From Desulfocapsa sp. (lineage in GTDB: Bacteria > Desulfobacterota > Desulfobulbia > Desulfobulbales > Desulfocapsaceae): a stretch of 21,804 bases of DNA. The DNA is taken from positions 1 through 21,804 of the forward strand of contig JAOZLI010000008.1 in assembly GCA_029934915.1 (NCBI GenBank), written 5' to 3'. Below are positions 5,779-21,525 of this stretch, piece by piece (position 1 is the first letter of the stretch; every line of letters begins with the position of its first letter). A program made the translations under genes and the position numbers. The notes beneath the pieces are model-generated. The model had not been told where the DNA came from and did no database searches. It saw nothing but the letters and a program-made list of their open reading frames with translations.

Positions 5779-6366
5779 ATGAGAGCGAAAGTCGAGATGA
5801 ATAAGCAAGACAATTGCAAACAGAATCTAAAAAAGAAGGCTATGCTCTTTTTTAGCCTGTCTATACCATTAAGCCTTTTAATAATCGGAAGCATGCTCTA
5901 TGCGTCACAGGGGCAATCTGATAAGGGACTATGGGTGGCTTTGTTCGCTGCTGTACTATTGCTGGTGACACTGGTCCTGGGTTCGCTTTTTTTCCAGCGC
6001 AGTATAGTTGTTCCTCTACAGGAGCTGTGTTCTACTGTTCAGAGAATAAGCAATGGCGAATTTGATAATCCAGTCCAGATCAGAACGATGGATGAAATTG
6101 GTCAGGTAGGTGAAAGCGTCAACGACCTGGTAATAAATGTACAGGAAATTCTTCTCTATGCCTGGAACCACACACATAAAAACTTTACACCTCTCAAAGA
6201 ACTCCCGGCAGATCCTTCCCTGTTAAAAAACGAAATTGCCAAGATATACCGAGAAAATGAAAATATGAAGGAATTCCTGCTGACCTTCACGTATTTTGAA
6301 GTCAAACTGGAACATGAAAAAATGGTATCTGATACTCTGGATGATTCAAATGCTGACAATTCTTAA
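5779..6366 (+). CDS. Two-helix HAMP-only membrane protein (chemosensory operon)
   Basis: This inner-membrane protein of up to 195 residues has TM1 at about 21-43 and TM2 at about 51-72, with almost no periplasmic loop. A HAMP domain follows at about 72-126 (VVPLQELCSTVQRIS to MDEIGQVGESVNDL). The remaining ~70 residues are helical and charged and match no output domain I recognise. It has neither a kinase nor an MCP signalling domain, so it is a HAMP module without an obvious effector. A second protein of the same design lies at 15162-15677, and the two align through HAMP and the following helix. Its position between the receiver and cheA suggests an accessory part of the array. An in-frame ATG at 5797 (residue 7) is an equally possible start; neither has a strong ribosome-binding site. 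Confidence 0.85.
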   Translation: MRAKVEMNKQDNCKQNLKKKAMLFFSLSIPLSLLIIGSMLYASQGQSDKGLWVALFAAVLLLVTLVLGSLFFQRSIVVPLQELCSTVQRISNGEFDNPVQIRTMDEIGQVGESVNDLVINVQEILLYAWNHTHKNFTPLKELPADPSLLKNEIAKIYRENENMKEFLLTFTYFEVKLEHEKMVSDTLDDSNADNS

Positions 6367-6380
6367 GCAAGGCGACAACC

Positions 6381-9300
6381 ATGGCTGACTTATCAATGTT
6401 ACCGGATTTTATAGACGAAGCAGTTGAGCACCTCGAAGAATTAGAGAGCTCTCTCCTGCGTCTTGAGACCCAGCGTGAAGATGCTGATGTACTCAACGAT
6501 ATCTTCAGATCGATGCATACGATTAAGGGTGCGGCTCAATTTGTCGGTATCGAACGAATCTCAGAACTCTCCCACAAGCTTGAAAACCTGCTGGATAATA
6601 TTCGCCAGGGAAAGCAAGAGCTGGATGAACCCTGTATAGACCTGCTTATTGCTGGTAAAGACAGAATTTCACAACTGGTTACTGAGCTTGAGAAATCCCA
6701 GGTAGAAGAAACTGAAATTGACGACCTCCTTCAGCGCATTGACAATGACGTGGAACCTGGAAGCGAGGCCATCGTCGAGATGGCCGTTCCTACTGAAATT
6801 GCACATCAATCGTGCTCTCTTCAAGCAGATGCCCAGGAAGAAGAACATGACGAAGAACTGTATAATATCTTTCTGGAACAGCTTCAGGAAAAAATTCCTT
6901 TTTTACAATCCCAAATAGACACACTTGCTACCACAACAGCAAAACAGGACATCCTGACCCATTGCGGTAATGGTATTAAGAACCTTCTCTCTTCTGCCAA
7001 CTATATGGGGTATGAAAGACTCAACCAGCATTATAAAGAATGGCAAATAAAAATCGAAGATGTCCTGACTCAGTTATCTGCTGATCAGCAACCAGACCTG
7101 AGCTTTATGCAGAGCTTTCTTGATGAAATTATCACTGTTTATCCACAGGCAATGGAGAATATCACAGTCAGCACTGAGGATGGGATCACAGATGCCCTTG
7201 ATTCTCTTTTTTCAGATACTCCGGAAGAAACACCGCAAGCATCCTCCACAGATGCAGGCGCTGATCTCGAATCCGCTCTGAACTCAGCCTTTATTGATAA
7301 CTTTGGCGAATCTTCTGAGGAAGTGACGGAAAGCAGTACACCACCCGCAGAGCTAGAAAATGAGGCTCTTGCAGAAGAATATGATGAGGAGTTACTTGAA
7401 ATTTTCATGACCCAACTCCAGGAAAAAATTCCATTCTTACAATCCCAGATCACTGAAATTGCAACGACAACAGATAAGGAAGAAGTACTAGACCATTGCA
7501 CCAAGGCCATTACAAGTCTTCAATCTTCTGCCAATTACATGGGATATGAGAAGCTCAACAGCCATTATGTGCATTGGCTGAATGCACTTGAACAGGCCAG
7601 GGGGCAACTCAGGAGCGGCCAGCACCTCGACATTGGTTTCATGCAGGCATTTATCGATACAATCAACAAGACCTATCCGCAAGACACCGAAAATATCGTT
7701 CAACCTGCTGACGATAGCGACGATTTAGATGCAGCTCTGGAATCGGTATTAAGTGATGGATTTTCAGGATCCCTTGGAGAAATAGAAGAAAAAAGCAAAC
7801 CTGAGCTTCTTGAGAATGAGACGCTGGCAGAAGAGTACGATGAGGAATTACTGAGCATCTTCATCAATCAACTCCAGGAAAACATCCCCCTATTACAATC
7901 TCAGATAGCAAAACTTGCAACATCTGCCAATAAGCAGGAAGTTCTCAGCCACTGCCACGAGACAATCAAAAGCCTGTATTCCTCTGCAAACTATATGGGC
8001 TATGGGAAGCTTAGCAACCACTACAATATATGGAAGGAAGAGCTTAAAACTGCAGTAACAGGTCTCCAGAACGGACAGGAGCCTGATCTTGCGTTTATGC
8101 AAAATCGTATCGATGAAGTCGTTACCGCCTATCCACAAGCCATAGAAACCGTAACACAGGTAACTGCCTCCGATCCCGATGATGAATTTGAGGATATTAC
8201 GGAAACCATCGGTTCCATGCTAAGTGTTCGACCACCTGAAGATCCAGTCAAAGAAGCTCAGACAAAAGAGAATCCTGAAGATATTACAATGCTGCCGGAG
8301 CGACAGACCGAAGAGGACGATGAGGCTCTCTTCAGCAAACTGAGCAATGCCCTGGAAGCTTCGCTTAATCAGGAGGAGAATATTCCATTAACACCGATGC
8401 ATGGTGTCATAGAAGAGATGGTCACTCCGAAAAAGGTTGAACCAAAGCCCTCTACTCCAAAATCCGCAAGTGCTGCAGAACCCGAAAAAACAAAACCTCA
8501 GCAGCAAGTGCAACCTGCCGAAAAGAAAGCGCCTGCCAAAATCAAACAGAGTATGCGGGTTGATACGGACAAAATCGACTTTTTGATGAACCAGGTTGGT
8601 GAGCTGGTGGTAAGTCGAGCCTATTTTGCACAGCTTTTTGCTGAAATGAGGGGATTACAACAGCACTTGTTAGATAATCTCAACCTCACCAAGAGCGAAT
8701 TAAAACCACTCAATGAATTTGCTTTCAGGCTGGGAGAAGCTGGAGTTGCACTTGGTCGGGTATCCAATGAGCTCCAGGAAGGCGTTATGAAAGTACGGAT
8801 GCTGCCCATCGACCATCTATTCAAACGCTTTCCGCGCCTGATACGTGATCTTGTTCACAAGAGTGACAAGAAGGTCGACTTAAAAACCAGAGGAGAAGAA
8901 ACAGAACTGGACAAAATGGTGGTGGAAGAAATCTCCGATCCGCTCATTCATATCCTGCGTAATGCCGTTGACCATGGCATCGAAAGTGCCGAAGAGAGAA
9001 TACGACAGGGTAAGCCGGAAACTGGCACCATTACCTTGGAAGCCTATCATGAAAGTGATCATATCGTCATTGATGTAACCGATGACGGCAGAGGAATTGA
9101 TTTCAAGCGTATCAAAGACAAGGCGCTGGCAAAGGGTCTCTACTCAGCAAGCGAACTCAATCGTATGACTGAGTCGGAAGTGAAACATCTTATCATGCAG
9201 CCCGGATTTTCCACTGCAGAAAAAACGACCAAGACCTCTGGGCGTGGCGTCGGCATGGATGTGGTGAAGAAGAATATCGAAAAGCTTAACGGAAGCATTG

Positions 9301-9851
9301 AAATCGAAACGACATTCGGCAAAGGTTCCAGAATACGAATCAAAATCCCACTGACCATGGCCATTATTCAGGCCCTGATGGTTCGCGTGGGTGAAGAAAA
9401 ATTCACTATCCCATTGACCTCTGTGGAAGAAACCCTGCGAATTTTCCAACAGGACATTTCTGAAATTGAAGGTGTTGATGTTATCTATATCCGTGATACC
9501 ACAATGCCTATTTTCAGGCTTTCGAAAATGTTCAGCATACAGGACGCCAATCAGGATAGAGACAAATTATTTGTGGTGGTGGTCAGTACCGGATCATCCG
9601 AAATTGGCCTGGTGGTAGATGAACTCCTGGGCCAGGAAGAAGTTGTTATCAAACCCCTTGCCGACTATTTACGGACAGACAGCGGGTTCTCAGGTGCCAC
9701 AATTCTTGGTACTGGAGGTATCTCACTGATCCTCGACATTCCCGAACTGGTGGAAATGAGCAATGCGAATCAGGTCAGAAGGCAACAAAAGCTTTCCCAC
9801 GGACGCCGTGTGGTCGACCATGATGATATGGAACAGCCAGTAGTACATTAA
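6381..9851 (+). CDS. cheA: Chemotaxis histidine kinase CheA with pseudo-Hpt array
   Basis: This 1156-residue CheA is much longer than the ~650 usual for the family. In order: a canonical Hpt (1-105) with phospho-His46 in SMHTIKGAA; three tandem Hpt-like repeats (about 155-265, 332-440, 484-592) that lack the His; an acidic then Pro/Lys/Ala-rich linker (about 595-722); the dimerisation helices (724-800, starting SMRVDTDKIDFLMNQVGELV); the ATPase with N-box HILRNAVDHGIE (857-868), G1 DDGRGID and G2 GRGVGMD; and a C-terminal CheW-like P5 domain (about 990-1125). No P2 CheY-docking domain is evident. It should autophosphorylate on His46 and pass phosphate to the receivers encoded nearby. AAGG lies eight bases before the ATG. 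The gene is 14 bp after the HAMP gene. Confidence 0.96.
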   Translation: MADLSMLPDFIDEAVEHLEELESSLLRLETQREDADVLNDIFRSMHTIKGAAQFVGIERISELSHKLENLLDNIRQGKQELDEPCIDLLIAGKDRISQLVTELEKSQVEETEIDDLLQRIDNDVEPGSEAIVEMAVPTEIAHQSCSLQADAQEEEHDEELYNIFLEQLQEKIPFLQSQIDTLATTTAKQDILTHCGNGIKNLLSSANYMGYERLNQHYKEWQIKIEDVLTQLSADQQPDLSFMQSFLDEIITVYPQAMENITVSTEDGITDALDSLFSDTPEETPQASSTDAGADLESALNSAFIDNFGESSEEVTESSTPPAELENEALAEEYDEELLEIFMTQLQEKIPFLQSQITEIATTTDKEEVLDHCTKAITSLQSSANYMGYEKLNSHYVHWLNALEQARGQLRSGQHLDIGFMQAFIDTINKTYPQDTENIVQPADDSDDLDAALESVLSDGFSGSLGEIEEKSKPELLENETLAEEYDEELLSIFINQLQENIPLLQSQIAKLATSANKQEVLSHCHETIKSLYSSANYMGYGKLSNHYNIWKEELKTAVTGLQNGQEPDLAFMQNRIDEVVTAYPQAIETVTQVTASDPDDEFEDITETIGSMLSVRPPEDPVKEAQTKENPEDITMLPERQTEEDDEALFSKLSNALEASLNQEENIPLTPMHGVIEEMVTPKKVEPKPSTPKSASAAEPEKTKPQQQVQPAEKKAPAKIKQSMRVDTDKIDFLMNQVGELVVSRAYFAQLFAEMRGLQQHLLDNLNLTKSELKPLNEFAFRLGEAGVALGRVSNELQEGVMKVRMLPIDHLFKRFPRLIRDLVHKSDKKVDLKTRGEETELDKMVVEEISDPLIHILRNAVDHGIESAEERIRQGKPETGTITLEAYHESDHIVIDVTDDGRGIDFKRIKDKALAKGLYSASELNRMTESEVKHLIMQPGFSTAEKTTKTSGRGVGMDVVKKNIEKLNGSIEIETTFGKGSRIRIKIPLTMAIIQALMVRVGEEKFTIPLTSVEETLRIFQQDISEIEGVDVIYIRDTTMPIFRLSKMFSIQDANQDRDKLFVVVVSTGSSEIGLVVDELLGQEEVVIKPLADYLRTDSGFSGATILGTGGISLILDIPELVEMSNANQVRRQQKLSHGRRVVDHDDMEQPVVH
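6843..8156 (+). repeat. Three tandem Hpt-like protein repeats inside cheA
   Basis: The repeats cover CheA residues about 155-265, 332-440 and 484-592. Each begins DEEL-xx-IF, contains QLQE-x-IP-x-LQSQI, a conserved HC, then SSANYMGY-x-KL/RL and HYxxW, and ends near YPQ. Aligning the invariant Gly of NYMG with Gly56 of the true Hpt puts the phosphorylatable His at residues 200, 378 and 530. Those positions are Lys, Thr and Lys, and the KGxA motif is replaced by xSSA. The units are clearly homologous to each other but separated by divergent acidic linkers, so they arose by old internal duplication. They probably serve as scaffold or docking modules. Confidence 0.8.
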
Positions 9852-10022: not shown

Positions 10023-11060
10023 ATGGATGAAAAATTTAACGTTTTAGTTGTCGATGATGCCTCTTTCATGACCAAGGCAATCAGTGAAATTCTGGAAGCT
10101 GACCCTGATGTTACTGTGGTTGGAGTTGCCAGGAATGGGCAGGAGGGGCTGGAACAGATAAAACGATTACGTCCCGATGTCATCACGCTGGATATTGATA
10201 TGCCGATCATGAATGGTATTGAGGCAATTCGCCATATCATGATCGAATCTCCTGTTCCCATTGTTGTGCTCAGCTCTCTCTTTGGTGACGGTTCCATTAC
10301 CTTTGAAGCTCTGCGCCTGGGAGTTGTTGATTTTGTAGCGAAACCATCCGGCGCCATCTCCAAAGATATTCACGTTGCCAAACAACAGATTCTTGATCGT
10401 ATAAAACTGGCAACATCCGTAAATCTTGAAAATGTTCGCAGGGTACGAGTGAATGAACAGAATGTTCGGGAAACACTGGAAGACCGGTACGGCTTTCAAC
10501 CCCTTGAGTATCTTGTTGCCATGGGTACCTCACTCAGCGGCCCCAACACCTTTATTCGTTTAATGACTCAACTTTCTCCTGCAATGCCGGCTGCTGCTGT
10601 GGTTGTACTGGAAATAAACTCGCAAATACTCCCGGCTTTTGTAGAAAAATTCAATGATTTCGTTCCCTGGAAGGTTGAGGTTGCGTGTCAAGATACGGTT
10701 ATAGAACAGGGGGTTTGCTATATTCATTCCAACGAGGCGGCTCTCACGATTCAACCCAACGACAGCGGAGAACCTGCCTTTAATATCGCAGGCCCTGTGG
10801 AAAGACCTCTGGACACATTTTTCAGCTCAGTAGCTGATGTCTTTAAGCAGCAGGCAATTGGTATAATGCTTACAGGATATGGCGACGATGGAGCGAATGG
10901 TTTTGCCGCAATTCAGCAAAAATCAGGAGTGACCATTGCCCAGAGTATAGAAACATGTGTCTATCCAAATCTGACAGATAACGCCATCAAATGCCAAACT
11001 GTAGATCAAATTGTGGAGGAGAGTAAATTGGCGGAAGCCATTGAAAATATCATTTCCTGA
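10023..11060 (+). CDS. CheB-like regulator, REC plus methylesterase domain lacking catalytic His
   Basis: This 345-residue protein has the standard CheB layout. The receiver (1-125) has D11/D12, phospho-acceptor D57 (ITLDIDMP), Ser84 and Lys107. A linker and a CheB methylesterase-like domain (about 160-345) follow. The catalytic Ser is present (S170 in AMGTSLSGP) and so is the catalytic Asp (D289 in GYGDDG). The catalytic His, found in the usual QHMP motif, is Glu197 (VVLEINSQ). The normally conserved MPREA segment near the end is also lost (PNLTDNA). CheB removes methyl groups from MCPs; with Glu for His, activity is doubtful. It may bind receptors without hydrolysis or use another chemistry. 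No strong ribosome-binding site is visible. It follows cheA after a hairpin. Confidence 0.9.
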   Translation: MDEKFNVLVVDDASFMTKAISEILEADPDVTVVGVARNGQEGLEQIKRLRPDVITLDIDMPIMNGIEAIRHIMIESPVPIVVLSSLFGDGSITFEALRLGVVDFVAKPSGAISKDIHVAKQQILDRIKLATSVNLENVRRVRVNEQNVRETLEDRYGFQPLEYLVAMGTSLSGPNTFIRLMTQLSPAMPAAAVVVLEINSQILPAFVEKFNDFVPWKVEVACQDTVIEQGVCYIHSNEAALTIQPNDSGEPAFNIAGPVERPLDTFFSSVADVFKQQAIGIMLTGYGDDGANGFAAIQQKSGVTIAQSIETCVYPNLTDNAIKCQTVDQIVEESKLAEAIENIIS

Positions 11061-11242
11061 TATCTGTTCAGGTTGTTAGCATTTTAGGCTGTAGGCTATT
11101 AGCAAATACGCACAAATAGTCCAACAGCACCTGGATGGCCTGACTCAGTTGTAGAGAGCGCATTTATGCGTAAAAAAGCGTTTTTCCTAACAGTCTAAAT
11201 ATCTTCGGCCTATTATGCTGAATAGTTACTTAGAGCCTTATT

Positions 11243-12160
11243 ATGATAATAACTTGCGACAAATGTAAAACCAGATACAAGCTGGCAGATACGATTACAG
11301 ACAAGGATGCCTTTAAGGTTCGATGTCAAAAATGTAATCATAGCTTTATGGCCTACAAATCCGTCCCGGAAGAACAATCCCTGCTGTTACAGGAAGAAAT
11401 AACACCTGATCACAATAAAATCATAGCCATCAGTAATCAAAAAGGCGGCGTTGCCAAAACCTCCACCTGTTTAAATCTTGGAATGGCACTGGCACAAATG
11501 AACAAGAAAGTACTACTGGTCGATTTTGATGTGCAGGCAAACCTGACTATTTTACTGGGGTTTCGAAAAACAGAATCGTTTTATGAAATTCTGGAAAAAA
11601 ACACAAAGGATATCAGCAGTTCCATACAAAAGACAAGATATCCAAATTTAGACCTTCTCCCCTCCAACAGCAAGATGGCATTGCTGAAAAAAAAATACCT
11701 GAATGTAGATCGCTACGAATACCTGCTGCGGGACAGATTGGATCTGATAAAAAAACAGTATGACCATATCCTGATAGACACCCCGCCCTCCATTGAGTTT
11801 TTCACGTTAAACGCACTTATCGCCTCAAACTTTGTTGTTATCCCCACGACGTGTGAATACCTCTCCATGCACGGTATCGGCCAGATCAATGATATCCTGA
11901 CCATTATTAAAAAAGAAATCAATCAGGATATAAATCATAAAGTTTTGATTACCATGCATAATGCGGATATCACCTCCGAGAAAGTAATGTTCAACAAGAT
12001 ACAGGAAAAGTATAGAGACAACATTTTTAAAACCGCCATTGAAATAGACAATAAAATGCAGGAGTCACATATCGTAAACATGCCTGTTGTTCTATATGCG
12101 AAAGAGAGTAAGTCCGCACAACAATACATAAAACTGGCACAGGAGATTAGCGGAGAATGA
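11243..12160 (+). CDS. Zinc-ribbon ParA/MinD-family ATPase
   Basis: This 305-residue protein fuses an N-terminal zinc ribbon to a ParA-type ATPase. The ribbon (1-40) has Cys5, Cys8, Cys28 and Cys31 in two CxxC pairs and resembles the MJ0042-type finger of deltaproteobacterial proteins. The ATPase starts near residue 58. It has the deviant Walker A KGGVAKTS (67-74), including the signature Lys67, the A' motif LLVDFDVQAN (D94, D96) and Walker B HILIDTPPS (D179). ParA relatives position cargo, including chemosensory arrays (ParC) in other bacteria. No parB or replication genes are nearby, so cargo positioning of the array or transporter is a reasonable inference. The ATP-binding residues look intact. 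Its stop overlaps the permease start by 4 bp, so it leads the transport operon. Confidence 0.88.
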   Translation: MIITCDKCKTRYKLADTITDKDAFKVRCQKCNHSFMAYKSVPEEQSLLLQEEITPDHNKIIAISNQKGGVAKTSTCLNLGMALAQMNKKVLLVDFDVQANLTILLGFRKTESFYEILEKNTKDISSSIQKTRYPNLDLLPSNSKMALLKKKYLNVDRYEYLLRDRLDLIKKQYDHILIDTPPSIEFFTLNALIASNFVVIPTTCEYLSMHGIGQINDILTIIKKEINQDINHKVLITMHNADITSEKVMFNKIQEKYRDNIFKTAIEIDNKMQESHIVNMPVVLYAKESKSAQQYIKLAQEISGE

Positions 12161-12924
12161 TGCCATGCGCAAAACCAATTCTTACCCCTCTACTCTCCTT
12201 TATCATTTGTATTCTGCTCTGGGAGCTCACGGTACGATATAGCGGTTGGGACAAAAACATCTTTCCTGACCCGCTCACGGTTTTGATCAGCATGGGAGAG
12301 CTTATTCGCAGCGGTTGCCTCCTCAAGCATACGGTGGCCAGCCTCTTTCGGGTAACAGCCGGGTTTTATCTGGCGGCAATACTAGGTATTCCACTGGGAA
12401 TTTTTTTAGGTAGAAATTATACAGCTGCTCTGTTTTTCAATCCCATTATTAATTTTCTGCGTCCCATATCTCCACTGGCCTGGATCCCCTTGGCCATGCT
12501 CTGGTTTGGTATCGGCGATCAGCCTGCAATCTTTCTGATATTTCTCTCCAGTTTTTTCCCCATCGTGGTGGCAACAACGGTTGCGGTACAATCCATCAAT
12601 CCGACCTATTTTTATGTAGCTGCCAACTTTGATTTCAATAAATATGAAGTGCTCAGTAAAATTGTGATTCCTGCAATCATTCCTTCCATCGTAACTTCCC
12701 TTCGCCTGACGGTCACCATCGCCTGGATTGTGGTGGTGGCAGCTGAAATGATAGCGGTACAATCGGGACTTGGTTACCTAATTCTTGATTCCCGTAATGG
12801 CTTACGCATGGATTATGTTATGGATGCAATGATTGTCATCGGTCTTATAGGATTATTCCTCGATTATATCATGCGGAGGTTGAGTAACATCGAATCTACA
12901 GTCTGGGCAACAGTGGAACGATAG
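12157..12924 (+). CDS. ABC transporter permease, SsuC/TauC/NrtB family
   Basis: This 255-residue integral membrane protein has about six hydrophobic segments. It carries the cytoplasmic coupling loop of binding-protein-dependent permeases (FNKYEVLSKIVIPAIIPSI, near residues 165-183) and the family hallmark AAEMIAVQSGLGYLI. This family moves sulfonates, taurine, nitrate, bicarbonate or pyrimidine precursors, and the substrate cannot be chosen from sequence. It overlaps the ParA stop by 4 bp (ATGA) and is followed after 10 bp by its ATPase. An ATG directly after the first codon is an alternative start. Length and organisation are normal. Confidence 0.92.
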   Translation: MMPCAKPILTPLLSFIICILLWELTVRYSGWDKNIFPDPLTVLISMGELIRSGCLLKHTVASLFRVTAGFYLAAILGIPLGIFLGRNYTAALFFNPIINFLRPISPLAWIPLAMLWFGIGDQPAIFLIFLSSFFPIVVATTVAVQSINPTYFYVAANFDFNKYEVLSKIVIPAIIPSIVTSLRLTVTIAWIVVVAAEMIAVQSGLGYLILDSRNGLRMDYVMDAMIVIGLIGLFLDYIMRRLSNIESTVWATVER

Positions 12925-12934
12925 CATTCTGAAC

Positions 12935-13729
12935 ATGGGAAATATTCTTGTAAAGCAAATAAGTAAAGAGTTTTGTAACAGGCGGCACGTCAACCGGGAC
13001 AATGATCATCTCTGTCCGCATGGTGATGTCATTCCTGTCCTGAACAAAATAGATCTTGAAATCAAGGAAGGGGAGATGGCTTGCCTGCTGGGACCTTCCG
13101 GATGCGGCAAATCCACCCTTCTTCGCATTATTGCCGGATTTGATAAACAGACTTCGGGATCGCTGACTATTAACGGCAAAGCAGTTGACGGACCCAGTTC
13201 AAATAATATTTTTGTTTTTCAACACAGTGGCCTCCTGCCATGGATGACGGTCTGGCAAAATGTAGAACTGGGACTGCGCCATATAAAGAACCCTGAAGGA
13301 AAAAACCATGTAATATTGGAATATATCCAGATGGTTGAGCTCGACGGTTTCGAACACCATTACCCCTATCAACTTTCAGGTGGAATGCAGCGCCGTGCGG
13401 AACTCGCCAGGGCCCTGGCCGTTAATCCTGATATCCTGATCATGGATGAGCCATTTTCCGGACTCGACTTCCTCACCCACATGAAAATGCGGGAAGAAGT
13501 GGTCAATATGCACCAGTTTCTGGAAAAAACCATATTAATGGTCACCCACGATATTGACGATGCCCTTATCATGGGAGACAGAGTTGTGGTTTTCAGCAAT
13601 CGACCTTCTGAGATTAAAGTAAATCGCCGCCTTGATTTCTCCCACCCCCGAATTTTCGAGAAAAACCCTGAATTGCAGGACATTAGAGACGAGTTATTCC
13701 TGATGCTAGGTGTCAGCTACGGTGTATAG
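12935..13729 (+). CDS. ABC transporter ATP-binding protein, SsuB/TauB/NrtD family
   Basis: This 264-residue cytoplasmic ATPase energises the neighbouring permease. All motifs are present: Walker A GPSGCGKST (53-61), Q-loop Gln96 (VFQHSGLLPW), signature LSGGMQRR (147-154), Walker B ILIMDEP with Glu172, and switch His205 (VTHD). The LLPWMTVWQNV stretch after the Q-loop is typical of the nitrate/sulfonate/taurine group. One oddity is a Cys/His-rich insertion between the first strands (C14, H18, H25, C27, H29), not usual in the family and possibly metal-binding. The 3' end overlaps the binding-protein gene by 20 bp, or by 8 bp if the later GTG is used. Confidence 0.93.
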   Translation: MGNILVKQISKEFCNRRHVNRDNDHLCPHGDVIPVLNKIDLEIKEGEMACLLGPSGCGKSTLLRIIAGFDKQTSGSLTINGKAVDGPSSNNIFVFQHSGLLPWMTVWQNVELGLRHIKNPEGKNHVILEYIQMVELDGFEHHYPYQLSGGMQRRAELARALAVNPDILIMDEPFSGLDFLTHMKMREEVVNMHQFLEKTILMVTHDIDDALIMGDRVVVFSNRPSEIKVNRRLDFSHPRIFEKNPELQDIRDELFLMLGVSYGV

Positions 13730-14753
13730 ATTAATAAAAGCCATCCCCCCTGTCTGGCGTACCCTTGCAGGCTCTGCAGCTTGGCTGCTGCTAATATCTG
13801 TACTGCATTTCTGGCTCAACGGTGAACATGATTCCAGAAAAGTCGTATCCATGGGCTACATGCCGGTTATTACCAACCTGGCAGCCCCACTGTTAGATCA
13901 TGCCAGCAAAAAGAATGAAGATATTTATTTTAAGGCGCTAAAGTTCAGTTCATTTGCAGAAATGGCAGAAGCCCTGCGACATGATGAAATAGAGGCAGCC
14001 TTTATTATTGCGCCCCTGGCGATTGCGCTGCATCAACAAAACGAAGATATAAAGATTGTCTATATTGGCAATCGGCATGAAAGTACCTTCGTCGCCAGAA
14101 AAGAGTTAAATATACAATCATTCAATGAACTGTCCGGTAAAACCATTGCCGTTCCCATGCGTTATTCAGGGCACAATATAGCCATTCAAAAATTGATGGA
14201 AGAAAGCGGACTCAATGGACAGATTAAAGTGGTGGAATTAAACCCACCGGACATGGCTTCGGCTCTGATGGCCGGTTCCCTTGATGGGTATTTTGTAGGA
14301 GAGCCCTTTGCTGCCCAAACGCTGAAAAATGGAACAGCAAGCCTTGTTTTTCACGTTGAAGATGTCTGGGACTCCTTTATCTGCAACCTTGTCCTCGTCA
14401 AGCAGCAACTGATAGAAGATGAACCCGAAACCGTCAGAATGCTCGTTGAAGGGGCAATACGATCCGGCTTCTGGGCAAGGTCTCACCCCCGCCAGGCAGC
14501 AGAGATTGCCGCTGCCTACTGGAATCAGTCCGTTGATCTGGTGGAGTACGCCCTGACACAGCCTGCTGGCCGTATTGTCTACGACCAGTATATGCCCAAA
14601 GAGGAAGAGATCCAGCAACTGGCTGACCTGATGGAACATTTCAATTTAACAAAAACTAATACTATCCAAGGTTTGGTAGATGATCAGTTTACCAGATCAA
14701 TGAGTACAAGTACTGTTGACAACCTTGAAGAGATTTTCAAAAACAATGAATAA
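13710..14753 (+). CDS. Membrane-anchored ABC substrate-binding protein, NrtA/SsuA-like
   Basis: This ~347-residue type-2 binding protein of the NMT1/NrtA/SsuA group has a basic start and one hydrophobic helix (about 18-36, TLAGSAAWLLLISVLHFWL). No obvious signal-peptidase or lipobox site follows, so it is probably tethered by an uncleaved anchor. The periplasmic part begins VSMGYMPVITNLAAPLL and shows the family pattern: IEAAFIIAPLAIAL, LSGKTIAVPM, DGYFVGEPFAA and a C-terminal helical region. It should deliver substrate to the adjoining permease/ATPase. The start is GTG. The GTG at 13710 gives the longest product, but GTG 13722 has AGGTG nine bases upstream and is as likely. It overlaps the ATPase gene and, at its end, the PilZ gene. 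Confidence 0.88.
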   Translation: MSATVYRLIKAIPPVWRTLAGSAAWLLLISVLHFWLNGEHDSRKVVSMGYMPVITNLAAPLLDHASKKNEDIYFKALKFSSFAEMAEALRHDEIEAAFIIAPLAIALHQQNEDIKIVYIGNRHESTFVARKELNIQSFNELSGKTIAVPMRYSGHNIAIQKLMEESGLNGQIKVVELNPPDMASALMAGSLDGYFVGEPFAAQTLKNGTASLVFHVEDVWDSFICNLVLVKQQLIEDEPETVRMLVEGAIRSGFWARSHPRQAAEIAAAYWNQSVDLVEYALTQPAGRIVYDQYMPKEEEIQQLADLMEHFNLTKTNTIQGLVDDQFTRSMSTSTVDNLEEIFKNNE

Positions 14754-15165
14754 CAGAGCCCAGAACAACAGACGTTTCCCCAGAGTTCCTAAGAGTGTCA
14801 ATATGACTGTCAGGAGGCTGCAATACCCCTTGGCCGATGTTCCAAAGACACCAGCAATTACAAAAAACGTAGCCACCGTGGGAGTCTGTTTTGTCACCAC
14901 AGAACTCTATGAGACCGGTATCCTGTTAAGCCTGGACATTGATCTTCGTGGTTGGCAGCAATATCTGGAAAATGTATTTTCCGTCATCGATGCAGGCACC
15001 ATCACCCGACCGTTAACGGCAATAGCTGAAGTAGTCTGGGTGCAAAATCTCACAAACAACAAAGGCTATAAAGTTGGTGTCAGGTTCCAGGATATTTACG
15101 AAGACGACCTCAAGGCCTTACAAAAATATCTCACCGCAATAATAGAAAAAGACAACATGTTATGA
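14746..15165 (+). CDS. PilZ-domain protein
   Basis: This 139-residue protein has a single PilZ domain, the c-di-GMP receptor family. The RxxxR motif is present (RRFPR, residues 9-13). The second motif, normally D/NxSxxG, reads NVATVG (41-46), with Ala for Ser. The C-terminal strands VVWVQNL and YKVGVRFQDI fit the fold. I chose the ATG at 14746, which overlaps the upstream stop by 8 bp. A TTG at 14716 would add ten residues but has no ribosome-binding site. It lies inside the transport operon and overlaps the following HAMP gene by 4 bp (ATGA), so it is co-translated with membrane signalling parts. c-di-GMP binding is likely but not certain given the altered motif. Confidence 0.82.
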   Translation: MNNRAQNNRRFPRVPKSVNMTVRRLQYPLADVPKTPAITKNVATVGVCFVTTELYETGILLSLDIDLRGWQQYLENVFSVIDAGTITRPLTAIAEVVWVQNLTNNKGYKVGVRFQDIYEDDLKALQKYLTAIIEKDNML

Positions 15166-15677
15166 TTTCTCTTCCCCGCAGCGGACTGCACCGTCAGCTC
15201 ATATTTTACACATTCTTTATTGGAATTGTGTTCCTGACCATGGCCTTTGAGATGACCATTTTTCTAAGGGGAGACCGGGTACAACTTCCTGCAGAAACAA
15301 CAAACCTGATTCTTCTTAAAACAGGGTTGATGCTGGCCATTCTCCTTCTGGCCATTGGCTTGGTGATGTTACTCTTTACAAAGCGTATCATGTTTCCCCT
15401 CGGTCGGATAATTGAAGGAACGGAAGCCATGAGCCAAGGAGATTTCTCCGTTGTACTGCCCGATCAGAGCCGCGATGAACTTGGAGAACTGGCACGACGA
15501 ATCAATGATCTTACAGCCAATCACCAGGAACTCATTCTCCTTACTCAAAATATGAGTGAACAGGCCAAACAGGTTTTGCAGACCGGGGCTGCTGAGACCA
15601 GAACGGAGGATGCTATTAAAATCCTTGTTGAACTGGACGAAACCTTAAGCGAATTCGGCAGGAGTTTTTACTCGTGA
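15162..15677 (+). CDS. Two-helix HAMP-only membrane protein (transport operon)
   Basis: This 171-residue inner-membrane protein has TM1 at about 11-35, a short periplasmic segment, TM2 at about 49-73, HAMP at about 73-125 (MFPLGRIIEGTEAMS to DELGELARRINDL), and a ~45-residue helical tail with no recognised effector. It is the same design as the protein at 5779-6366. The post-HAMP helices also look alike (HQELILL here, VQEILLY there), so the two are probably paralogues. It starts within the PilZ stop codon, suggesting translational coupling. Possible roles are relaying a membrane or transport signal to the PilZ protein or docking on the receptor array; both are inference. Confidence 0.84.
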   Translation: MISLPRSGLHRQLIFYTFFIGIVFLTMAFEMTIFLRGDRVQLPAETTNLILLKTGLMLAILLLAIGLVMLLFTKRIMFPLGRIIEGTEAMSQGDFSVVLPDQSRDELGELARRINDLTANHQELILLTQNMSEQAKQVLQTGAAETRTEDAIKILVELDETLSEFGRSFYS

Positions 15678-15690
15678 GGAATGCGGGCTA

Positions 15691-16455
15691 ATGCCAGGAT
15701 TTACAGAATACTGGTTTATGATACCCGTGGGTCTGTTTATATCCACAATTGCCATGTTTTTCGGTCTTGGCGGCGGTGTGTTATGGATGCCATTTTTGCT
15801 GATGACCACAGCTCTCCAACCACGAGAAGCTGTACTCTGCACCCTTGTCATCCAGTTTTTCGGTCAACTCAGTGCCTCCTTTGCCAACCATCGCTCTGGC
15901 CTGATTGACTGGCGACTTGTGCAACTACTCTTACTAGCCGGTATTCCTGCAGTCGTTGCAGGTGTTCTCCTCTCCTGTCTGCTCCATCCTCTCTGGATAG
16001 AATTTCTTCTCGGCCTGACTATTTTTTTTATAGCCTATGTTTTTCTCAGGGGTGACGACTTTTTTGTCGAAGGCACTGCCAAAGCAGACCTTGCAGCTGC
16101 CCGTAAGGGGCGGTTCATTACAATAATTGGCGGCATGTTAACTGGATTTATCGGCATCGGTGTAGGAGACTGGCTGGTACCGTTTTTTAATAAACATTGT
16201 AAACTTGCCATGGTCTATTCTGTGGCAAGCAGTATTGCCCTGATGATGATTCTCTCTTTAACGGCCATGAGTACTCACCTTCTTCTTGGGATACACATAG
16301 AATGGATCATAGCCGTACCAGGTATTATTGGTGTGATAATTGGCGCGCAGGTTGGCTCAAGACTGCTACAGCGTATTCCAGAGATTCGTTTTAAAGAACT
16401 CTTTGTGCTCATGCTGATTTTTATTGCCACCCATGTGACCTTCAATGCGCTCTGA
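15691..16455 (+). CDS. TauE/SafE-family membrane transporter
   Basis: This 254-residue polytopic membrane protein has about eight hydrophobic segments. It shows the two-repeat architecture of the TauE/SafE (sulfite exporter, DUF81) family: the first half has MFFGLGGGVLWMPFLL and the second has the related GGMLTGFIGIGVGDWLVPFF. Family members export sulfite, sulfoacetate or related organosulfur anions, and many are uncharacterised. It starts 13 bp after the HAMP gene, with GAGGA about ten bases before its ATG. Together with the NrtA/SsuA-like ABC genes it would fit import of a sulfonate-like compound and export of the released anion, but this is inference. It is the last gene of the operon; palindromic repeat copy 2 follows. 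Confidence 0.9.
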   Translation: MPGFTEYWFMIPVGLFISTIAMFFGLGGGVLWMPFLLMTTALQPREAVLCTLVIQFFGQLSASFANHRSGLIDWRLVQLLLLAGIPAVVAGVLLSCLLHPLWIEFLLGLTIFFIAYVFLRGDDFFVEGTAKADLAAARKGRFITIIGGMLTGFIGIGVGDWLVPFFNKHCKLAMVYSVASSIALMMILSLTAMSTHLLLGIHIEWIIAVPGIIGVIIGAQVGSRLLQRIPEIRFKELFVLMLIFIATHVTFNAL

Positions 16456-16529
16456 CATTGACAGTTCGGGATAAAAGCATATATACTTTTATTATGATTG
16501 ATGGCGGTGTATTTATACCCTTTTTTCGG

Positions 16530-16646
16530 GTGAAAACTCTTCATCTTCTTCGTCACTGCAAATTTACTGTCACTGCGGCGTACTTAAGTACGCCTCATTC
16601 CATTAAATTTGCGTTCCTCGAATATGAAGTTTTTTACTTAGCCATC
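16530..16646. repeat. Imperfect palindromic repeat, copy 2 (left end altered)
   Basis: This 117-bp segment matches 4637-4753 with about seven substitutions and no gaps, in the same orientation. The central 18 bp, GGCGTACTTAAGTACGCC (16577-16594), is a perfect palindrome, and the right end is GCCATC (16641-16646). The left terminal bases differ from copy 1. A GATGGC occurs at 16499-16504, with about 25 unrelated bases between it and the conserved part, so the left tip may have suffered an insertion. It lies between the TauE gene and the PATAN-REC-CheB gene and may end transcription there. Confidence 0.85.
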
Positions 16647-16723
16647 TGAGATTATATTTTTTTACCAGACGCACACAAGTACTACAAATTAGGACTCACA
16701 GCTCAACATAAAACGACAAAAAA

Positions 16724-18109
16724 ATGACAGAGCAAGCCAAAAGTGGATTCAACGGTGATGTACAGGGTCTCAGTCTTATAGACATTGTCCAGCTTGTCTG
16801 TATGGAAGGAGACGACAGAAAGATAACTGTACAAAGCCAAGAGAATAATGGGGTTATCTATTTCCATGACAATGAAATCATTCACGCCGAATGTGAGGGA
16901 GTAACCGGTAAAGAGGCATTCTACACTATTATGAGCTGGCCTTCCGGAACATTCAGCATGATTTTTGCCAGCACCGAGACACGGAGCATTGACGCTTCGT
17001 GGAATTTTCTTCTGATAGAAGCAGTACGCCTCATCGATGAGAAGGAAAATAACGGCGAGACCGACGACACAGAAGATTCTCTGCAACAGAAGGTCCTGGT
17101 GGTAGATGATTCAAAGCTCTTCACAAAAGCCTTTGTCAAACTCTTTGAAGAAGAAATTAATGCAAAAGTTATCGGTACAGCTACCAATGGTAAGGAAGCA
17201 CTGAAATTCCTGGAAGTGCAGGTTCCCGACCTAGTGACACTTGATATCAACATGCCGGTTATGGGAGGAGATTCGGCCTTAAAGCACATTATGATCCGTT
17301 CACCATCGCCTGTAATACTGGTGAGTAATTGCAGCGAACAGTCGTGTGCAACACTTATGGATTTTATGCGACTTGGTGCCGTTGATGTGGTTGCGAAACC
17401 TATAAATCCGCAGTCATGGGAAATAGTCAGTAAACGCCTCCACCACATTATTACACATGTAAAGGAGTTTCGTGTTGATAATGTCAGCAGAGCAAAAAAA
17501 CTGATCCCGATGGCGAAACGAATTACCCCCGAGAAACCTGCCAGAGAACTGATCGTTATTATTGGAGGACTCGGAGGAATGCTTGAATTACAAAAGGTCG
17601 TCCCCTCCCTCGAATACAACGCTGACACTGCTATAATGATCCTGCAGGATATGTATCCGTCTATCACTCCGCCGCTTGCGGCTTATCTTGATTTATTTAC
17701 ACCCTTTCCAACGACAACCATGGTCACCAATACAGCTATTTCTGGCGGACGTTGCCAGGTGGGCAATTGTCACACGCAATGGCATATCACCACTACAGAC
17801 GGCGCCCCCGTGGTTTGCGGTGAAGAGAACGATACCTTTGAGGTCTCCCTGGACAGATCCAAATTGCTAACTTCAGCAAGTGATGCCTTTGGCACAGCAT
17901 TAACGATTATTATTCTAAGCGGCAGTGATACGAACATGAAACAGGAAATCGAATATGCTTCGGGCAATGGAGCCACCATTCTGCTGCAGGAACCTGATTC
18001 CTGCCTCTTACCCGCCCCAATTATTGAACTACGTGATTTAGCCATAAAAACACATTGCCTGAAACCGGAAGAAATGGGATCTTTTATTTCCAACGCTTCC
18101 ATGAAATAG
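16724..18109 (+). CDS. PATAN-REC-CheB-like regulator with no catalytic triad
   Basis: This 461-residue protein begins with a PATAN/DUF4388 domain (about 8-105; GLSLIDIVQLVCM, GVIYFHDNEIIHAEC, SWPSGTFSM). A receiver follows (123-240) with D128/D129, phospho-acceptor D174, Ser201 and Lys225 all in place. A degenerate CheB methylesterase domain ends the protein (about 273-455). Aligned to CheB, the catalytic Ser is Gly282 (IIGGLGG), His is Asp309 (ILQDMYP) and Asp is Asn404 (LSGSDTNM), so methylesterase chemistry should be absent. PATAN-receiver proteins control type IV pili in cyanobacteria, which hints at a non-flagellar output. The receiver is probably a CheA substrate. It is 13 bp upstream of a related gene and probably co-transcribed with it. 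Confidence 0.88.
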   Translation: MTEQAKSGFNGDVQGLSLIDIVQLVCMEGDDRKITVQSQENNGVIYFHDNEIIHAECEGVTGKEAFYTIMSWPSGTFSMIFASTETRSIDASWNFLLIEAVRLIDEKENNGETDDTEDSLQQKVLVVDDSKLFTKAFVKLFEEEINAKVIGTATNGKEALKFLEVQVPDLVTLDINMPVMGGDSALKHIMIRSPSPVILVSNCSEQSCATLMDFMRLGAVDVVAKPINPQSWEIVSKRLHHIITHVKEFRVDNVSRAKKLIPMAKRITPEKPARELIVIIGGLGGMLELQKVVPSLEYNADTAIMILQDMYPSITPPLAAYLDLFTPFPTTTMVTNTAISGGRCQVGNCHTQWHITTTDGAPVVCGEENDTFEVSLDRSKLLTSASDAFGTALTIIILSGSDTNMKQEIEYASGNGATILLQEPDSCLLPAPIIELRDLAIKTHCLKPEEMGSFISNASMK

Positions 18110-18122
18110 AGAGATCAACTCA

Positions 18123-19883
18123 ATGGCCAAGTCTAAAATTCTCATTGTTGACAGTAATCCGGTTTTTGTCAACCTCCTCAGCGAAGAGCTTGAACTCTAC
18201 GGTCAGTTTGAAGTTCTTACTGCAACAAGGGAAAACGAAGAAATTGCTGCTCTTAAAGATCATCATATTGATATCGTACTGGTTGATATTGATGCAGAAA
18301 ATATTGAAGGACTACACTTCCTTTCTTTTATGAGCACCACCCATCCCCGTACTCCCTGCATTGTCATGACCAGAAAAGATCATTCTGAAACAGCAACGAT
18401 CAACAGTTGTGCAGGTAACGACTCTATTTTCTGTTACACGAAAAAGCCAACCCGCCTGATCGAACTTGGCGGTGAAATCATTGAGGGACTATATCGTATT
18501 GATGAGAATGACTACTCGCCAGGAATCGCGGTAAACAGATTACTGCACCTGCTTGCGATCCACAAAAAAACAGGCCGTATCCAAATTAAATTCGGCAGCA
18601 AAAAACATGGTTTTTTTGACTTTCATCACGGTATCCTGCAAGATGCCTTTTATCCTGAAAGAGAGGGCGAGGAAGCCCTCACAGAGATGCTCAGTTGGCC
18701 TCCTGTTAGTTTTCAATTTGAAACCCTGCCCCCGGATTACCAGAAGAATCGTATTTCGCCTGAATTCCTTAATACCATCCAGGGCTCCTCCAAGGGGGCA
18801 AGCTCTGCCACCGGTAACAAACAAAAAAAAATCAAACTCTTTATCGTTGATGATTCTAAAATGATGCGCAAGGTCATTGCCAATGTCTTTAAGGATGATG
18901 ACAGCATTGAGATAGTAGGGGAAGCAGATAACGGCAAAGCCGCACTGGAACTCCTGCCACAACTCTGTCCCGATGTGGTTACCCTCGATGTCCAAATGCC
19001 TGTAATGGATGGAATCACAACGCTGAAACATATGATGATTCAGGCCCCCACTCCCACAATAATGCTCAGTGCCTACACTCGTGAGGGAGCGGTTATCACC
19101 TACGATGCACTGCGGTTTGGAGCTGTGGATTTTGTGGCCAAACCTTCCAATGTCGATGGCCTTGATCTTAAGGAACAAGCTAGAGAAATAGTGCGAAAGG
19201 TACATCTTGCTGCAGCAGTTGAGCTCGAAGCTGTAAAATACATACGAGCTGCTAAAAGGAAGGACGATGCAAAACAACAATCCGGTTCAGACACCTGTGA
19301 CACACTGGTAGCCATTGGAGCTGCGGAAGGTGGATACGGCACTTTGTTAAAAATTCTGCCACACTTACGTCCCGGACTCTCCACTGCATACCTGGTAATA
19401 TTACATGTCTCTCCCCAGCATGTTGACTCCTTTATTGATTATCTTGGCACCTATTGTGCGGTACCGGTAAAACGAGCACAAAACCACGCCCCCATCGAAA
19501 ACGGTGTCTGCTATCTTGCATCTGGCGAAGAGTACTTAATCGTGCAAAAAAAGGAGAATAACCTGCTGCAGCACTTGTCCCCAGCCCCCTTTGCCTCCCG
19601 CAGAGGAGCCATCGATATGCTGATGTTTTCAGCTGCAGAGGCCATGAAGGACAATACGATAGGCGTAATTCTCTCAGGCATGGGAAGTGACGGCGAGGAA
19701 GGTTTGGAGGAAATTATACGAGTAGGTGGTTCTGCTATACTTCAGGACTCTGCAAGCTGCCTCTATAAAGAAATGGTGCAGAACGCTTCGCAATGCTGTC
19801 CTGCCGCACCCACTGTTCCTGATGGTGAGATTGCAGAAAGGATTCACAGGATGATTTCGACAGAATACAACGTTGTTATGTAG
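18123..19883 (+). CDS. REC-PATAN-REC-CheB-like regulator lacking catalytic Ser
   Basis: This 586-residue protein has four modules. The first receiver (1-125) has D55 and Lys107/108, but its acidic pair is D10-S11, so Mg binding may be weak. A PATAN/DUF4388 domain follows (about 128-205; GFFDFHHGILQDAFY, EMLSWPPVSFQFE). A second, complete receiver (236-360) has D243/D244, D289, Ser316 and Lys340. The CheB-like domain (about 392-586) keeps catalytic His428 (ILHVSP) and Asp523 (GMGSDG), but the nucleophilic Ser is Ala401 (IGAAEGG), so hydrolysis is not expected. The overall fold is the best preserved of the three CheB homologues here, as GVILSGMGSDGEEGL shows. It could bind methylated or amidated receptor sites without cleaving them. 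It ends 25 bp from the convergent ABC-F gene. Confidence 0.9.
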   Translation: MAKSKILIVDSNPVFVNLLSEELELYGQFEVLTATRENEEIAALKDHHIDIVLVDIDAENIEGLHFLSFMSTTHPRTPCIVMTRKDHSETATINSCAGNDSIFCYTKKPTRLIELGGEIIEGLYRIDENDYSPGIAVNRLLHLLAIHKKTGRIQIKFGSKKHGFFDFHHGILQDAFYPEREGEEALTEMLSWPPVSFQFETLPPDYQKNRISPEFLNTIQGSSKGASSATGNKQKKIKLFIVDDSKMMRKVIANVFKDDDSIEIVGEADNGKAALELLPQLCPDVVTLDVQMPVMDGITTLKHMMIQAPTPTIMLSAYTREGAVITYDALRFGAVDFVAKPSNVDGLDLKEQAREIVRKVHLAAAVELEAVKYIRAAKRKDDAKQQSGSDTCDTLVAIGAAEGGYGTLLKILPHLRPGLSTAYLVILHVSPQHVDSFIDYLGTYCAVPVKRAQNHAPIENGVCYLASGEEYLIVQKKENNLLQHLSPAPFASRRGAIDMLMFSAAEAMKDNTIGVILSGMGSDGEEGLEEIIRVGGSAILQDSASCLYKEMVQNASQCCPAAPTVPDGEIAERIHRMISTEYNVVM

Positions 19884-19908: not shown

Positions 19909-21525
19909 TTAAGCCGATTTCTGCAGGTAATAATCATAATCGCCCCCATAAAGATGCATTGCACCGTGATCGATTTCCATAACATGATCCACAAGAGAGT
20001 GCAGGAAATGCCGGTCATGGCTAACCAGAATGACAGTTCCCGTAAATTTCTTTAGCGCTTCCAAAAGAATATCACGAGATTGCATATCCAGGTGATTTGT
20101 GGGTTCATCCAGCACCAGAAAGTTATACGGACGAGCCAGCAGAGTTGCCAGTACAACCCGGCTCTTTTCTCCTCCTGATAACTGCGAGATACGTTTATCT
20201 GCATCGTCACCTTGAAAGAGGAAGGCCCCGCACAGGTTACGAACCTGGCCGATATGTGCCTGGGGCATAACCTCCTGCACCGTATCAAATACTGTCCTGT
20301 CAGCGTCAAGTATATCCATGGAATGCTGGCTGAAATAGCCCACATTCACATTGGCACCCAGCGTCACCGTTCCACTTGTAGGTTCGGTTTTTCCGGTCAG
20401 TACTTTTAAAAAAGTGGATTTCCCGGCACCATTCACTCCAACCACAGCAATCTTTTCCTGTCGGCGTATCATTCCGGAAACCCCGCTGAACACGGGTTTT
20501 GTACTTTTATCTTCCAGAATCCAGGTTTTGCCAAGCTCATGTATAGCCACCACATCATCACCGCTCCGAGGTGGTTCTGCAAATTCAAAACGCATAATTT
20601 TCTGTTCCGGCGGCAAGACAATACGTTCAATTTTCTCCAGTTTTTTGATGCGTGACTGCACCTGAGCGGCATGGGAAACACGAGCTGCAAAGCGGGCAAT
20701 AAAATCTTCTTCTTTGGCCAGCATCTCCTGCTGGCGTCTATAACTTGCCTGCAACTGTTCACGCCGAATATCACGTTCACGCAGATAAAAATCGTAGTCT
20801 CCGCCATAGGTGGTAACTGTTTTATTGGCCACTTCAATAATCCTGCTGACAATGGAATTCATAAAGATGCGATCATGACTGGTCATAAGCACACCTCCTT
20901 TGAAATCATTTTTCAGCCACTCTTCCAACCAGAGGATAGACTCTATATCAAGGTGGTTGGTTGGCTCGTCAAGTAACAGAACGTCGGGATTAATGGTTAG
21001 AATCTTGGCAAGAGCTATGCGCATCTTCCATCCACCACTAAAGGACTCAACCGGCCGGTTATAATCATCAGGGCCTATGCCAAGACCAGTGAGCACTGCC
21101 TGTGCACGACTTTCCAGATCGTATCCGCCCCTGTGTTCAAACTCTTCCTGAGCATTGCCATAGCGTTCGAGTAATTCAGCCAGGTCATCATCGGACATGG
21201 GTTCTGCCATGGCGGCTTCCATCTCCTGAATTTCCGTAGCCAGATCCGTCACTTCCGCCACAGCAGACATGGTTTCTTCCAGTGCAGAACACCCCGCCAT
21301 TTCACCAACTTCCTGAGAGAAATAACCGATTACCGTTTTTTTGGAACAGGCAATATCGCCCTTATCGGCCTCTTCCTCACCGGTGATAAGGCGAAATATT
21401 GTACTTTTCCCCGCACCATTGGGACCAACCAGGCCACTACGGACACCGGGAAGGATTTGCAAACTGGCATTGCTGAAAAGAATCTGGCGGCCATGTTGCT
21501 TGCTGATATTGGTCAAATGAATCAT
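19909..21525 (-). CDS. ABC-F family ATPase (ribosome-associated type)
   Basis: This 538-residue soluble protein has two ABC ATPase domains and no membrane segment, the ABC-F layout (EttA/Uup/YbiT/YheS relatives). Domain 1 has Walker A GPNGAGKST (34-42), signature FSGGWKMR and Walker B LLLDEPTNHLD. The charged linker (about 240-310, with AQVQSRIKKLEKIERI) matches the P-site tRNA interaction motif region. Domain 2 has Walker A GVNGAGKST, signature LSGGEKSR, LVLDEPTNHLD and VSHDRHFL. ABC-F proteins act on the ribosome to relieve stalls or confer antibiotic tolerance. The subfamily is not clear from inspection, so I give no symbol. It is transcribed against the chemosensory genes and is probably an unrelated housekeeping neighbour that marks the edge of the cluster. 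Confidence 0.95.
   Translation of the reverse strand: MIHLTNISKQHGRQILFSNASLQILPGVRSGLVGPNGAGKSTIFRLITGEEEADKGDIACSKKTVIGYFSQEVGEMAGCSALEETMSAVAEVTDLATEIQEMEAAMAEPMSDDDLAELLERYGNAQEEFEHRGGYDLESRAQAVLTGLGIGPDDYNRPVESFSGGWKMRIALAKILTINPDVLLLDEPTNHLDIESILWLEEWLKNDFKGGVLMTSHDRIFMNSIVSRIIEVANKTVTTYGGDYDFYLRERDIRREQLQASYRRQQEMLAKEEDFIARFAARVSHAAQVQSRIKKLEKIERIVLPPEQKIMRFEFAEPPRSGDDVVAIHELGKTWILEDKSTKPVFSGVSGMIRRQEKIAVVGVNGAGKSTFLKVLTGKTEPTSGTVTLGANVNVGYFSQHSMDILDADRTVFDTVQEVMPQAHIGQVRNLCGAFLFQGDDADKRISQLSGGEKSRVVLATLLARPYNFLVLDEPTNHLDMQSRDILLEALKKFTGTVILVSHDRHFLHSLVDHVMEIDHGAMHLYGGDYDYYLQKSA

Follow-up and report, generated by a model that had tools for sequence, protein, structure and literature searches.

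Can a CheB protein still serve a chemosensory system once it has lost the residues with which it cuts methyl esters? CheB is the textbook response regulator with an enzyme as its effector, and the question is raised by a chemosensory cluster in a 21,804-nucleotide stretch of DNA from Desulfocapsa sp. (contig JAOZLI010000008.1, positions 1 to 21,804; hereafter the window) that encodes three CheB homologues, here called B1, B2 and B3. All three couple a receiver (REC) to a CheB domain, and each has a differently broken Ser-His-Asp triad, the corresponding residues being S/E/D in B1, G/D/N in B2 and A/H/D in B3. An original prediction, made from the window alone, had read these proteins as phospho-regulated, non-enzymatic CheB-like outputs or decoys. 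The best reading of the comparisons reported here is that B1, B2 and B3 are predicted to be non-enzymatic, their broken triads being fixed in orthologues and their receivers kept.

Triads and receivers of the CheB homologues

The CheB_methylest and REC domains of B1, B2 and B3 score above the Pfam cut-offs, and B1 and B2, compared with CheB structures, keep the CheB fold; the CheB domain is full length. Against the NCBIfam CheB subfamily NF001965 (cut-off 293 bits) the scores are 247.6 (B1), 145.1 (B2) and 301.0 (B3), with B3 alone above the cut-off. Triad positions were read in the best 120 protein matches of each family, window protein included, out of 1415 (B1), 1089 (B2) and 1427 (B3). The B1 matches carry Ser, Thr or Asn at the first triad position, Glu or Asp at the second and Asp at the third, with His in 0/120; in those of B2, Gly replaces Ser in 120/120 and one has His; those of B3 include A-Y-D (93), A-H-D (21) and S-H-D (1). 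A further tally covered 175 CheB-domain open reading frames (ORFs) at 79 named loci, with L091, the same contig as L085, left out; the Ser and His positions are unreadable in four fragments of B3 and in half of a B1 that is split. None of the 77 readable B1 sequences (78 ORFs) has His, and Ser is found in 0/43 B2 sequences, which have Gly (42) or Met (1) in its place. The B3 triad, readable in 48 of 52 ORFs, is AYD in 23, AHD in 11, SYD in 6, HYD in 3, SHD in 3, CHD in 1 and GYD in 1, and the Thr adjoining the nucleophile is replaced by Glu in every aligned B3. The B1 of Candidatus Competibacter phosphatis (L087) is split into two ORFs. As a control, the 71 CheB domains listed for 26 further genomes in the phylum yielded 66 S-H-D triads, two fragments and three degenerate domains; 66 of the 69 readable domains are intact, and all three exceptions come from one genome, G266. 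The predicted trio of differently broken triads is confirmed by these data, and its persistence among orthologues holds for B1 and B2 and, apart from the few intact triads, for B3.

The receivers are kept, as had also been predicted: the phospho-acceptor Asp is present in every aligned B1, B2 and B3, window proteins included, the site in B3 being that of the second receiver, while the first is weakened. (The conservation, receiver and CheA alignments retain the duplicate L091 row where B1 or B3 was used.) Residues D11, D12, D57, S84 and K107 of the B1 receiver are each found in 77/77 sequences; D174 and K225 of B2 in 42/42, with a first acidic residue that is Asp in 34 and Glu in 8; and D289 of B3 in 42/42, with its Lys in 41/42. 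The cluster CheY keeps D54 and K104 in 42/42, and H46 in the Hpt domain of CheA is kept in 62/62 ungapped rows of 69.

Conservation near the lost catalytic centre was scored over columns no more than four residues from the triad together with the CVVFGMP loop of intact CheB, the triad itself being excluded. This neighbourhood scores higher than the remaining columns of the domain in active CheB (0.593 versus 0.491) and likewise in B1 (0.632 versus 0.497; 0/5000 shuffles as high), B2 (0.451 versus 0.368, p 0.003) and B3 (0.547 versus 0.469, p 0.0096). Among the family signatures are EGGY, found in B3, and two in B1, GT-x-x-GPN and CV-x-PNLT. To judge from this conservation, the surface around the former active site is reused in B1, B2 and B3. 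The phosphate switch is kept and the catalytic centre lost, which suggests that the enzyme CheB gave rise to a set of binding proteins that can be switched, in a cluster common to cable bacteria and other sediment bacteria.

Ancestry of the degenerate domains

A fourth degenerate CheB is encoded in the same genome on contig C381 (locus L006, 1417-2628, minus strand), with REC-zinc ribbon-CheB architecture and G/H/D at the triad positions. This type has eight counterparts in further genomes of the same family, each with Gly at the Ser position, and their surroundings, where read, contain obgE-proB-proA-nadD-like genes (names judged from the translations of L113).

We built a tree from 126 of 208 domains (123 distinct, a limited number per family), with support from the SH-like approximate likelihood ratio test (SH-aLRT) only; the B2 branches in it are long, the active CheBs come from few lineages and the triad columns were kept in. 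A branch with support 98 separates the 25 active CheB rows from the other domains, and B1 (99), B2 (94), B3 (88) and the C381 type (99) form separate clades, of which B3 and the C381 type group together (97). Compared with the active CheBs, intactness of B3 switches four times on the tree. The degenerate families also have a GxCY motif in common, its Cys-Tyr being found in 98% of B1, 100% of B3, 100% of the C381 type and 79% of B2 and in 0/66 intact control CheBs. Residues C232 and C312 of B1 are cysteines kept in 79-100% of the members of each of the four families. The degenerate families mostly have Ser or Thr where 60/66 intact CheBs have Pro, and their RPSVD motif is altered and, in B1, one residue shorter. 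The one-sided branch of active CheBs and the common GxCY motif suggest, as the best-fitting history, an ancestor common to these families that was already altered, with the triads changing in different ways afterwards. Of the independent loss of activity originally proposed, the separation of B1, B2, B3 and the C381 type into clades stands; three independent losses from active CheB are not supported as stated, given the tree and the motif.

The control genome G266 carries, at locus L227, a B1 relative (S-D-D) and a B3 relative (A-Y-D) together with CheY, CheR, CheW and a methyl-accepting chemotaxis protein (MCP); its third degenerate CheB is on a separate contig. L227 is a possible evolutionary intermediate. 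The presence of CheR and an intact CheB in G266, and of an intact CheB in two of the named loci (L086 and L089), suggests an origin of the pseudo-CheBs next to a functional methylation system, later lost from the cluster.

Methylation and the proposed output function

Neither CheR nor CheD was found at any of 76 loci within the stretch examined around B1, and the same search did detect CheR at other loci (e.g. L096, L124 and L227). Receptors were scored for the consensus methylation motif by a regular expression, which other motif types would escape: it is absent from 31 of 45 cluster receptors, single in 13 and double in one, and the usual offsets are used by 0/45 of them versus 7/9 other receptors read from the window genome. 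With no CheR in the cluster, almost no intact CheB and a receptor without standard motifs, the cluster probably functions without classical methylation memory.

We consider it reasonably probable that the three proteins are REC-pseudoCheB switches which CheA phosphorylates and which have no enzymatic activity, in a chemosensory class that has no methylation enzymes of its own. B1, B2 and B3 would then be response regulators with a catalytically dead CheB domain as output. Conserved sites and synteny point to phosphorylation of their receivers by the cluster CheA, which, as the common fold would suggest, may open the receiver-effector interface as in CheB; the former active-site face so exposed would serve for binding a partner, not for methyl-ester cleavage. 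The pseudo-CheBs could thereby serve as outputs or feedback elements. B1, tied to the ParA-type ATPase and the ATP-binding cassette (ABC) transporter, may act on localisation or transport, and B2 and B3, with their PATAN-like DUF4388, would have type IV pilus-like surface motility as their most plausible target. DUF4388, which we take to be the PATAN domain, scores 60.6 bits in B2, 22.5 bits in B3, below the Pfam cut-off of 25, and is undetected in B1. By analogy with cyanobacteria this domain would point to type IV pilus-type motility (PMC7690835; for this article and for PMC3945109, PMC8609364, PMC10542144 and, on motility, PMC10580974, our statements concern part of the text). The phospho-regulated, non-enzymatic character originally proposed remains the best reading, with fold and phosphorylation sites kept and triads gone across orthologues.

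Several observations weigh against this proposal. The S-H-D triad is intact in 3/48 readable B3 orthologues, an intact CheB lies inside the cluster beside B1 and B2 at L086 and L089, and the B1 and B3 relatives of G266 adjoin CheR, with an intact CheB farther along that contig. In the same column test the C381 family has no extra conservation near the site (p 0.38). The window genome contains three CheR and three intact CheB, all on other contigs, and CheR is found somewhere in 17/17 cluster-bearing genomes searched, which makes methylation in trans possible. A consensus motif recurs at receptor offset -108 in 8/45 cluster receptors and a Glu at offset +81 is kept in 32/45, and given these a non-standard receptor methylation site is conceivable. 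DUF4388 and analogy are the basis of the pilus link, and no pilus gene was recognised among the scanned window genes.

Some of these points would suit decoys, that is, pseudo-CheBs that shield or compete at the modification sites of a receptor methylated by CheR in trans. Besides the CheR and intact CheB elsewhere in the genome, the CheR of relatives and the +81 Glu, such decoys could draw on the behaviour of CheB S164A, which still binds receptor, unchanged without the pentapeptide and about 2.5-fold less with it (PMC8609364). We judge them unlikely, however, since cluster receptors have no consensus motif at the canonical offsets, CheR is absent from all 76 loci and the residues adjoining the triad are altered in family-specific ways; the binding to receptor methylation sites entertained in the original prediction is weakened by the first two of these.

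The strong conservation of the site neighbourhood might instead reflect a cleft that keeps hydrolase or other activity, with new chemistry that in B1, for example, would use the acidic residue at the His position, which is acidic in 76/78 rows, with the triad Asp kept in 76/78. Yet the nucleophile position of B1 is variously Thr (40), Ser (28) or Asn (10) in the 78 rows, which argues against a serine enzyme, and the Ser position is Gly in 43/44 B2 rows and Ala in 35/49 B3 rows; a different enzyme is accordingly improbable. We would give a similarly small chance to phosphate sinks, which would need their receivers alone and retain the CheB domain as a passive leftover, CheA phosphate being drained and CheY reset speeded. 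Invariant receiver sites, several receivers per CheA and a Pfam scan of 17 window genes that shows no CheZ, CheC or CheX domain are as expected of sinks, whereas a full-length CheB domain, higher conservation near the site than elsewhere in the domain for B1, B2 and B3, and the addition of DUF4388 to B2 are not. Ordinary decay or sequencing error, to which the intact, half-lost and lost triads of B3 and the split Competibacter B1 might be ascribed, can be set aside as very improbable, the same broken states recurring in the 360 best protein matches and across the 79 named loci in open frames with conserved receivers.

Gene neighbourhood, hosts and known counterparts

The genes of the window (Table 1) run in the order PhnD-MCP-CheW-CheY-HAMP-CheA-B1-ParA-permease-ATPase-substrate-binding protein (SBP)-PilZ-HAMP-TauE-B2-B3. 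In relatives B3 is usually 5' of the MCP and B2 often lies between CheA and B1. Gene maps came from a greedy longest-ORF pick, which missed B1 in L024, L047 and L080, and presence counts are lower bounds: where the sequence on the upstream side of B1 extends to 7.5 kb or more (49 loci), CheA is found in at least 48, B3 in at least 40, the MCP in at least 39, CheW in at least 38 and CheY in at least 36, and among 54 loci with at least 5 kb downstream, the SBP in at least 48, the permease and the ATPase in at least 46 each and ParA in at least 37. The ABC transporter, of nitrate/sulfonate type (12157-14753) with an apparently membrane-anchored SBP, is part of the cluster in most relatives, and homologues of the PhnD-like protein occur in the clusters of L083, L084, L086 and L089. 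Desulfonema magnum (L050) has B1, B3 and the ABC genes, with CheA and MCP unrecognised within 10 kb upstream. The locus of the cultured Desulfobulbus rhabdoformis (L081) comprises MCP, CheW, CheA, B1, B2 and B3.

Table 1. Positions of the cluster genes, triad residues and adjoining features in the window
Feature	Position	Strand	Remarks
PhnD-like binding protein	1169-2071	+	Best NCBIfam match tetrathionate sensor TtrS, below cut-off
Chemoreceptor, dCache-HAMP-MCPsignal	2203-4629	+	Without consensus methylation motif
CheW	4832-5335	+	
CheY	5398-5748	+	Single receiver
Small HAMP protein	5779-6366	+	Between CheY and CheA
CheA	6381-9851	+	One Hpt, three SANYMGY repeats, kinase core, CheW domain
B1	10023-11060	+	REC + pseudo-CheB; CheB domain ~10515-11042
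B1 S170	10530-10532		Ser position
B1 E197	10611-10613		His position
B1 C232	10716-10718		Conserved cysteine
B1 D289	10887-10889		Asp position
B1 C312	10956-10958		Conserved cysteine
ParA/MinD-type ATPase	11243-12160	+	N-terminal MJ0042 zinc ribbon; 3' of B1
ABC permease	12157-12924	+	Nitrate/sulfonate/taurine type; NCBIfam matches all below cut-off
ABC ATPase	12935-13729	+	
NMT1/SsuA-type SBP	13710-14753	+	Apparent N-terminal membrane anchor (by eye)
PilZ-domain protein	14716-15165	+	
Second small HAMP protein	15162-15677	+	
TauE/SafE permease	15691-16455	+	
B2	16724-18109	+	DUF4388 + REC + pseudo-CheB; CheB domain ~17552-18082
B2 G282	17567-17569		Ser position
B2 D309	17648-17650		His position
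B2 N404	17933-17935		Asp position
B3	18123-19883	+	Weakened first REC, DUF4388-like stretch under cut-off, second REC and pseudo-CheB; CheB domain ~19308-19844
B3 A401	19323-19325		Ser position
B3 H428	19404-19406		His position
B3 D523	19689-19691		Asp position
ABC-F gene	19909-21525		

By recorded label the hosts comprise 31 Desulfobacterales, 10 Desulfobulbales (including the cable bacteria Candidatus Electronema and Electrothrix), 24 Gammaproteobacteria (e.g. Contendobacter, Competibacter, Venteria and Methylococcales) and 14 with coarse or odd labels. One cluster is in a metagenome-assembled genome labelled Synechococcaceae cyanobacterium (L018), a contig that may be mislabelled or misbinned. 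B1 is present in 1/20 genomes of the window's genus and 18/257 of its order. The adjoining ABC-F gene shares 84-90% identity with its counterparts in the seven other genomes of the genus that were searched, and its surroundings in four sibling genomes contain no such cluster; this contrast within the region 1-21525 makes it likely that the cluster was gained as an island in this species. A misbinned contig was judged unlikely, the ABC-F gene being genus-typical; counter to this, a partial 86% match exists in G071, a cluster-bearing genome of another family.

Two genomes have B1 cores identical to those of named cable bacteria (G129 to Ca. Electrothrix scaldis, G118 to Ca. Electronema aureum), and genera g50 and g49 are taken to be Electrothrix and Electronema, respectively. 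Among cluster-bearing cable-bacterial genomes, which the following counts cover, 8/9 show two MCP matches and no more, with one in the cluster, 9/11 searched have two CheA, 10/12 have no REC-CheB outside the cluster (judged by ORF size) and 12/12 have at least one CheR elsewhere. That cable bacteria might lack CheR altogether was rejected on the 17/17 result given above. Gliding and type IV pili have been described for them (PMC10580974); the main text of that article contains neither "chemotax" nor "chemosens", the word chemotaxis turns up once or twice in other papers, and in the open-access literature searched cable bacteria, chemotaxis and CheB never appear together in one paper. Because most cluster-bearing cable genomes searched have just two array systems, of which the cluster is one, it is a direct candidate for the sensing of these gliding bacteria. 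If the proposal is true, a fixed, multi-paralogue family of dead CheBs with the same fold and switch would show binding to be a possible use of the phospho-gated CheB module, and would show that a chemosensory array needs no methylation enzymes of its own to operate. More tentatively, the cluster may represent an undescribed, widespread chemosensory class of sediment and sulfur-cycle bacteria that gave up methylation memory in its own cluster, replaced CheB by binding, phospho-switched pseudoenzymes, built in an ABC transporter and supplies one of just two arrays in most cluster-bearing cable-bacterial genomes searched.

No inactive CheB response regulator family is described in the open-access literature searched, subscription papers lying outside its scope, nor is one mentioned in the parts of PMC3945109 and PMC10542144 covered. 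The nearest relatives in structure are the CheB proteins (1A2O, 6YMZ and 3SFT), which have the same REC-linker-CheB architecture, fold and conserved phosphorylation site; the window proteins differ in their broken triads, altered RPSVD and AP loops and GxCY motif, and in that no cluster CheR was found. The PATAN regulators PixG, PixE and LsiR (PMC7690835) resemble B2 in combining DUF4388 with REC and are likewise products of chemosensory-like clusters, whereas the window proteins have a pseudo-CheB fused on and no pilus gene was recognised beside them. The multi-Hpt CheA of the type IV pilus class (ChpA; PMC10542144) may be compared with the window CheA, which has one real Hpt and three long repeats with SANYMGY at the place of the phosphorylatable His, the last conserved in most orthologues. 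Pfam finds one Hpt only, and our reading of the repeats by eye is that they are His-less and Hpt-like. The window CheA differs in having no C-terminal receiver by Pfam, no recognised pilus genes nearby and three pseudo-CheBs in its cluster. Finally, CheA3 of Cereibacter sphaeroides, with its non-functional internal domains (PMC10542144), is a chemosensory protein in which fold is kept without activity, but it is a kinase, whereas the pseudo-CheBs of the window are response regulator effectors.

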